From: Anaerobranca gottschalkii DSM 13577
Lineage (GTDB): Bacteria > Bacillota > Proteinivoracia > Proteinivoracales > Proteinivoracaceae
Length of the DNA: 32,067 nt
Direction: 5' to 3'
Assembly (NCBI RefSeq): GCF_900111575.1
Contig: NZ_FOIF01000013.1
Location: forward strand, 1-32,067
Position numbers and translations under genes: made by a program. The notes beneath the pieces are model-generated. The model worked only from the letters and a program-made list of their open reading frames with translations, did no database searches and was not told the origin of the DNA. Numbering within the stretch: the stretch's first letter is position 1; the number at the start of each line of letters is the position of its first letter. This document shows positions 31,843-32,067 of the stretch, piece after piece.

Positions 31843-31888
31843 TGTCGTCGATCACCAATAGTGCAAAAATCCCTGGCAATCGACGACA
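31843..31888 (+). repeat. Inverted-repeat hairpin 1 between kamE and the CRISPR leader
   Basis: TGTCGTCGAT (31843-31852) and ATCGACGACA (31879-31888) form a perfect 10-bp stem, GC-richer than its surroundings. After a 2x2 internal loop, CCA/TGG adds three pairs. The 16-base loop contains GCAAAAATCCC, which is complementary to the right arm of the next hairpin. Confidence 0.75.
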
Positions 31889-31897
31889 AACCAAAAC

Positions 31898-31955
31898 AGA
31901 GCAAAAATCCTTTAATATCAGGCTTTAAGGGATTTTTGCTCTTAGTTTTAGTTTA
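31898..31955 (+). terminator. Hairpin 2, probable terminator of the lysine operon
   Basis: Bases 31898-31915 pair with 31925-31942 (about 18 pairs, core AGAGCAAAAATCC/GGATTTTTGCTCT, one G-T), and the stem is followed by TTAGTTTTAGTTT. It lies 96 bases after kamE and before the CRISPR promoter. Confidence 0.75.
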
Positions 31956-32023
31956 CATAATGCTTCAAAAAATAATTATTGACGAAATTCAAAAAATGCT
32001 GTAAAATAAGGATAAGTGATGGG
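31943..32023 (+). other. CRISPR leader region
   Basis: An AT-rich stretch of about 80 bases directly before the first repeat, on the side expected from repeat orientation (ATTGAAAC at the downstream end). It holds the array promoter. Confidence 0.7.
31979..32007 (+). promoter_or_regulatory. Promoter of the CRISPR array in the leader
   Basis: TTGACG and TAAAAT are separated by 17 bases, a strong housekeeping-type promoter, ending 16 bases before the first repeat and pointing into the array. Confidence 0.75.
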
Positions 32024-32067
32024 GTTACTAGCCTACCTATAAGGGATTGAAACCACTATGCTAGCAT
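32024..32067 (+). CRISPR. Start of a CRISPR array: first repeat and beginning of first spacer
   Basis: Bases 32024-32053 read as a 30-base repeat, GTTACTAGCC-TACCTATAAG-GGATTGAAAC, closely like repeats I recall from type I-B/III systems of thermophilic clostridia (usual start GTTTTTAGCC, usual end GGATTGAAAC). Fourteen bases of the first spacer follow before the window ends. Only one repeat is visible, so periodicity cannot be shown here; the call rests on the repeat type, the leader and the promoter. No cas gene is in the window. Confidence 0.8.

Follow-up and report, generated by a model that had tools for sequence, protein, structure and literature searches.

A conserved inverted-repeat element of CRISPR leaders, phased with the first repeat, as a candidate recognition site for spacer integration in type I-B and associated type III arrays

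We analysed a stretch of 32,067 nucleotides from Anaerobranca gottschalkii DSM 13577 (contig NZ_FOIF01000013.1, positions 1 to 32,067 of the forward strand), referred to below as the window. Close to its end, the gene coding for the beta subunit of lysine 5,6-aminomutase (NF052385, E 1e-125) is followed by two tandem hairpins, a probable promoter and the beginning of an array of clustered regularly interspaced short palindromic repeats (CRISPR). A preliminary description of the DNA had placed the hairpins between a catabolic gene and a CRISPR leader, which is correct: the aminomutase gene precedes them and the first repeat starts at 32024. It had offered several roles for the pair, including a refolding switch and an integration landmark of the array. 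For hairpin 1 the last of these agrees with our data, as this hairpin accompanies CRISPR leaders in several phyla and keeps a phased distance to the first repeat. The features of the locus are the following.

31843-31888, + strand: hairpin 1, a copy of a conserved leader-distal inverted-repeat element with the consensus TGTCGTCGAYCTCCAGTAGTGCAAAAACCCCTGGRGRTCGACGACA (fold z -8.5; covariance model match 64.3 bits, E 7e-15)
31843-31852, + strand: left arm of the hairpin 1 outer stem, TGTCGTCGAT, 10 bp (sequence and repeat search; co-varies with the right arm in relatives)
31859-31869, + strand: conserved loop core of hairpin 1, TAGTGCAAAAA (information profile; kept in copies without exact arms)
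31879-31888, + strand: right arm of the hairpin 1 outer stem, ATCGACGACA (sequence and repeat search; co-varying)
31898-31942, + strand: hairpin 2, a genus-specific leader hairpin with an 18-bp stem and the core AAAAATCCYTTAA..TTAAGGGATTTTT (alignment of six leaders of the genus)
31895-32023, + strand: motif-to-repeat spacing of 129 bp, spacing class 123-129 (measured from the 58-position motif to the first repeat)
31979-32007, + strand: probable array promoter TTGACG-17-TAAAAT, sigma-70-like (promoter scan, 10/12 matches)
32024-32053, + strand: first CRISPR repeat, GTTACTAGCCTACCTATAAGGGATTGAAAC (match to Rfam RF01315, reported by the Rfam model on the minus strand)

Hairpin 1 also holds an inner stem of 3 bp, and the arms of hairpin 2 (31898-31915 and 31925-31942) are 18 nt long and 94% complementary according to the repeat search. 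The 100-base segment with both hairpins folds at -40.9 kcal/mol as compared to -14.9 +/- 3.05 for its shuffled versions (z -8.5; none of 200 shuffles equalled it), so the hairpins of the preliminary description are real; the 12-base complementarity that it noted between them is present too. The opposite strand of the segment folds equally well (z -6.7). The promoter box is shared by the window, contigs C18 and C34 of the same genome and a sister genome. This promoter is placed between the hairpins and the array, so the probable transcript of the array would start downstream of both hairpins. The array extends beyond the window end, with repeats to about 32867 on the contig (C13), and is followed by a gene without an NCBIfam match and then by pyrG.

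A strict pattern combining the arms and the loop of hairpin 1 gave 90 loci among 84,980 species, belonging to Bacillota, Caldatribacteriota, Chloroflexota, WOR-3 and Bacteroidota. A covariance model was built from 65 of these loci. The preliminary description had suggested a covariance search for the 100-base segment in other genomes, asking whether it lies beside CRISPR leaders. The model of hairpin 1 matches 121 of the 398 genomes of the window's phylum (84 of 266 genera), while hairpin 2 is confined to the genus. Copies of hairpin 1 are also present on Geobacillus plasmids, and no match was found in phage records. Rfam has no match to hairpin 1 above the gathering score, its only match in this region being the CRISPR repeat. 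The element was not described in the literature searched, including a 2024 survey of new RNAs, though these were mostly non-subscription papers and an earlier notice is possible. Motifs that guide adaptation from the leader are already known as a kind; this one seems to be new in its sequence, its shape, its range of hosts and its spacing rule.

An information profile taken over 41 leader clusters not alignable with each other shows the motif as a 46-bp conserved island of about 73 bits, with 60 flanking bases on each side at 0.06-0.07 bits per position. It is an imperfect inverted repeat around a conserved asymmetric centre, and the loop core reads TARYGYAAAAA in most copies that lack exact arms. 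Two further stretches of the leaders are conserved, the last five bases before the first repeat and, weakly (0.5-0.7 bits per base), a block about 17-20 bp before it. On another contig of the same genome (L108, G000:C49, 1917-1971) there is a copy of hairpin 1 cut inside the loop: it is identical to the window copy until GTGCAAAAATCC and unrelated after this point, possibly representing a scar of recombination or insertion. Two viral contigs from IMG/VR (L296, L298) carry hairpin 1 between short repeats resembling a small array and a TnpB-like gene, as judged by eye.

As the strict-pattern set was selected with fixed arms, the invariance of the arms in it is built in, and the stem was therefore tested on 37 distinct copies with other arms. 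Paired changes were found at positions 9-50 (T-A to C-G, three cases), 10-49 (C-G to T-A, five cases) and 8-51 (G-C to T-A), with few half-changed pairs. The outer pairs vary in concert, giving 65 double-change cells versus 38 in shuffled data (0 of 500 shuffles equal). The compensatory changes that the preliminary description had proposed to look for are thus present in the stem of hairpin 1. Among one-sided changes, those leading to G-U (G-T) are about as common as those leading to A-C, and in 28 of the 41 leaders the minus strand has the slightly better fold. Such symmetry fits an inverted repeat in double-stranded DNA, or a hairpin of DNA, no less well than RNA.

The motif is located on the leader side of the array. 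In about 127 cases a general array finder has placed the array downstream in the same orientation as the motif, with a gap of 87-154 bp to the first repeat; these repeats are mostly of the GTTTnTAGnCTACCTATnAGGnATTGAAAC family. In 10 further cases the array is upstream and reversed, its repeats belong to AATCGAACCA and related families, and the gap is 38-48, 72 or 117 bp. Loci with the inverted motif include L151, L152, L153, L060, L159, L275-L277 and L285, where it lies 38-117 bp from the leader-proximal repeat. Three apparent exceptions with a forward array upstream are clusters in which the motif at least partly serves the next (tandem) array, and one case is unassigned. A repeat of the TACCTAT type is found within 300 bp of 176 out of 212 distinct motif copies; several copies without a repeat in reach are at a contig edge or resemble decayed leaders. 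The motif moves with the arrays. Small arrays preceded by hairpin 1 are seen on two Geobacillus plasmids, CP008904.1 (L299, 6001-6560) and NZ_CP017691.1 (L300, 6001-6320); they have no CRISPR annotation in the gene tables, and a gene for a tyrosine-type integrase is located upstream.

Distances between the motif and the first repeat form classes around 90, 101-104, 113-115, 125-127 and 136-139 bp (Rayleigh R 0.65, n=174). With the 41 unalignable leader clusters R was 0.62 and the best period was 12.0 bp (bootstrap 11.35-12.75), none of 5000 smooth nulls being equal. Pairwise differences between spacings are depleted at 6-7, 18-20 and 30-31 bp. At a period of 12 bp the motif is phased to the repeat (R 0.62) much better than to the promoter -10 box (R 0.28), whose own distance to the repeat varies between 13 and 101 bp. 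The gap of the window copy is 129 bp and those of its relatives in the same and the sister genome are 126-127 bp, though in this genus the gap is filled by hairpin 2.

Within the 398 genomes of the phylum, the motif was found in 94 of the 120 genomes with Cas1 of the I-B type (Cas1b, TIGR03641), in 9 of the 126 with other Cas1 only and in 18 of the 152 with no detected Cas1. It tracks Cas1b and not other Cas1, which sets it apart from IHF-dependent leaders of the I-E/I-F type. The A. gottschalkii genome has four intact copies of hairpin 1 (C18, C54, C13 and C34). The C18 copy follows cas2 of a complete I-B operon (cas4-cas1-cas2). The C54 copy (L107, G000:C54, 11904-11961) runs over the 3' end of cas6 in a III-B locus and supplies its stop codon (the TAG of the motif); no repeat was found in about 400 bp remaining on this contig. 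No cas genes were found in the examined part of the surroundings of the window copy and the C34 copy. The preliminary description had also suggested that the hairpins control read-through from the lysine operon into the array. Since the same unit of hairpins 1 and 2 also follows cas2, cas6 and other genes in this genome, such control is not why it evolved.

Related elements are known from other CRISPR systems. In the I-A system of Sulfolobus islandicus, mutation of a leader-distal motif (-143 to -94 from the repeat) lowers adaptation, and the motif is bound by the accessory factor Csa3a, which contacts Cas1 (PMC9456107). Hairpin 1 is likewise a DNA motif far up the leader, and its role in spacer acquisition would be similar. 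The Sulfolobus system is archaeal and has another type of Cas1 and another reader, and nothing like the sequence of hairpin 1, its hairpin shape or its 12-bp spacing classes has been reported there. Csa3 itself was considered as a reader of the motif and rejected, as none of the 398 genomes has a match to it (TIGR01884) above the curated cut-off. In I-E and I-F systems, as reported by Santiago-Frangos 2021 (cited in PMC12259127), leaders folded by IHF together with upstream motifs bring the DNA back to the integrase, and the phase of the motif matters. Hairpin 1 shares with these a phased position upstream of the integration site but differs in sequence, size, CRISPR systems and host group. 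The adjacent repeats belong to CRISPR-DR2 (RF01315), whereas hairpin 1 is located outside the array and is no repeat itself.

From the location, conservation, stem co-variation, phasing and Cas1b association of hairpin 1 we infer, with a probability of roughly 0.6, that it serves as a leader-distal DNA recognition element for spacer integration in type I-B and associated type III arrays. Hairpin 1 would be bound by Cas1-Cas2 together with Cas4, or by a host factor that binds or bends DNA and partners with them, and the stretch from hairpin 1 to the leader-repeat junction would be looped or folded. Only certain helical phases would then let the complex contact both hairpin 1 and the junction. 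By analogy with the IHF leaders and the Csa3a motif, hairpin 1 may in this way mark the leader end for the integration of new spacers. We also considered a more specific version, in which the I-B Cas1-Cas2-Cas4 integrase or a dedicated partner would recognise hairpin 1 in an extruded form, as a DNA hairpin or cruciform, with an underwound geometry of 12 bp per turn up to the repeat; this version is possible but doubtful.

Several observations weigh against a role of hairpin 1 in spacer integration. The main weakness is the 18 genomes, some of them complete, that have the motif and no detectable Cas1. One of them (G150) is a single contig with about 13 matches to hairpin 1 (L145, G150:C1:715000-734999), and most of its arrays that we have seen are preceded by the motif. 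No Cas1 was found in it at E 1e-10, and G298 is similar (a single contig with many copies). The association with Cas1b is inseparable from that with the whole I-B/III system. Csa3, missing from all 398 genomes at the cut-off used, is the one known reader of such a kind. The period of about 12 bp exceeds the 10.5 bp of relaxed B-DNA and is at the edge of what the reading allows or beyond it; DNA loops in vivo do have a period somewhat longer than 10.5 bp. Finally, the spacings may be similar by shared ancestry, which clustering of the leaders reduces and does not remove.

The same data can be read differently. If hairpin 1 were the site of a dimeric transcription factor controlling array transcription, e.g., its induction by infection, an inverted repeat upstream of the promoter would be the usual shape of such a site and equal numbers of G-T and A-C mismatches would be expected of double-stranded DNA rather than of an RNA stem; in Sulfolobus, Csa3a has both jobs (PMC9456107). 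Nevertheless, we find this unlikely, given the poor phasing of the motif to the variably placed -10 box as compared to the repeat, and a strong centre with 16-bp half sites would be unusual for a single factor. Compensatory stem changes, the conserved loop and a T-rich stretch after the stem in many leaders would agree with hairpin 1 acting as RNA, either a structured small RNA or a hairpin terminating or protecting the end of a transcript that enters the leader from the cas operon or another upstream neighbour. Intrinsic terminators and attenuators are also stem-loops between genes, and hairpin 2 resembles one, but the loop and arms of hairpin 1 are conserved across phyla, it has no obligatory T-run (many copies, including that of the window, lack it) and it is tied to CRISPR leaders in either orientation. 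Given the lack of strand bias and of an Rfam match, the position of the motif before the promoter and its phasing with DNA a long way downstream, an RNA role seems rather improbable. Spreading of leader-array units through hairpin 1 as a mobile or recombination site, i.e. array duplication and not spacer uptake, is more improbable still. It would account for the many copies per genome (13 in G150, where no Cas1 was detected), for orphan arrays far from cas genes, as in the window, for the arrays on Geobacillus plasmids and for the C49 copy cut in the loop. However, the flanks are unconserved on both sides, there is no second boundary and no recombinase consistently adjoining, and phasing with the repeat is not explained.

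The refolding proposed in the preliminary description, in which pairing of the hairpin 1 loop with the right arm of hairpin 2 would control whether transcription stops before reaching the array, was rejected and retains only a very slight chance. Its basis is a perfect match over 12 bases between GCAAAAATCCCT (31863-31874) and the reverse complement of AGGGATTTTTGC (31928-31939), a length not reached in any of 5000 shufflings of the 90 bases downstream; other leaders of the genus have 7-10 bases, and only leaders of this genus reach 7-12. Yet among 209 copies of hairpin 1 the complementarity of the loop to downstream DNA averages 5.61 versus 5.35 in shuffled sequences, showing no excess. In the sister genome (C4) the loop is changed to AAAAATCCAT (TCCCT to TCCAT) while hairpin 2 retains AAAAATCCCTTAA/TTAAGGGATTTTT, so the compensatory change expected for the loop-to-arm pairing is missing. 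The energies are also against refolding: hairpin 1, hairpin 2 and the loop-arm duplex have -17.2, -22.6 and -16.7 kcal/mol, respectively, and the forced nested alternative fold has -18.1 versus -40.9 kcal/mol, favouring two separate hairpins by more than 20. An attenuator does not fit either, as the two pairings are neither both conserved nor co-varying and a T-run is missing after the hairpin. The complementarity exists because an arm of hairpin 2, AAAAATCC(C), happens to match the conserved loop (common string AAAAATCCC). It is a local coincidence that gives no evidence of a switch, and it is probably not used.

Hairpin 2 is a distinct feature of the leaders of this genus. All six that were aligned contain it, and it is absent from the unrelated leaders inspected. 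The preliminary description called it terminator-like. The hairpin with its 18-bp stem is real, but no T-run after it passed the terminator scan, so the label is generous; possibly, hairpin 2 is a weak bidirectional terminator. A part of its right arm, CTTTAAGGGATT (31923-31934), is similar to CTATAAGGGATT of the repeat (32037-32048), and on sequence grounds hairpin 2 could contain a repeat-like site. Pairing of the hairpin 1 loop with the CRISPR repeat (AATCCCT with AGGGATT) was also considered and rejected by inspection, as the loop varies independently of the repeat (in L059, for instance, the loop TCCC is found beside the repeat AGGAATT).

To our knowledge, recognition of the leader end of arrays is much less well understood in type I-B and type III systems than in I-E, I-F and II-A. 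The element described here, 46 bp long, common to otherwise dissimilar leaders and in phase with the first repeat, offers a concrete candidate for this step in I-B/III systems. Hairpin 1 also provides a handle for identifying the putative binding protein, for finding and orienting arrays and for spotting decayed or unannotated ones, such as those on the Geobacillus plasmids. If the cruciform version is true, one of the most common CRISPR types in bacteria would have in hairpin 1 an integration landmark that has gone unrecognised.
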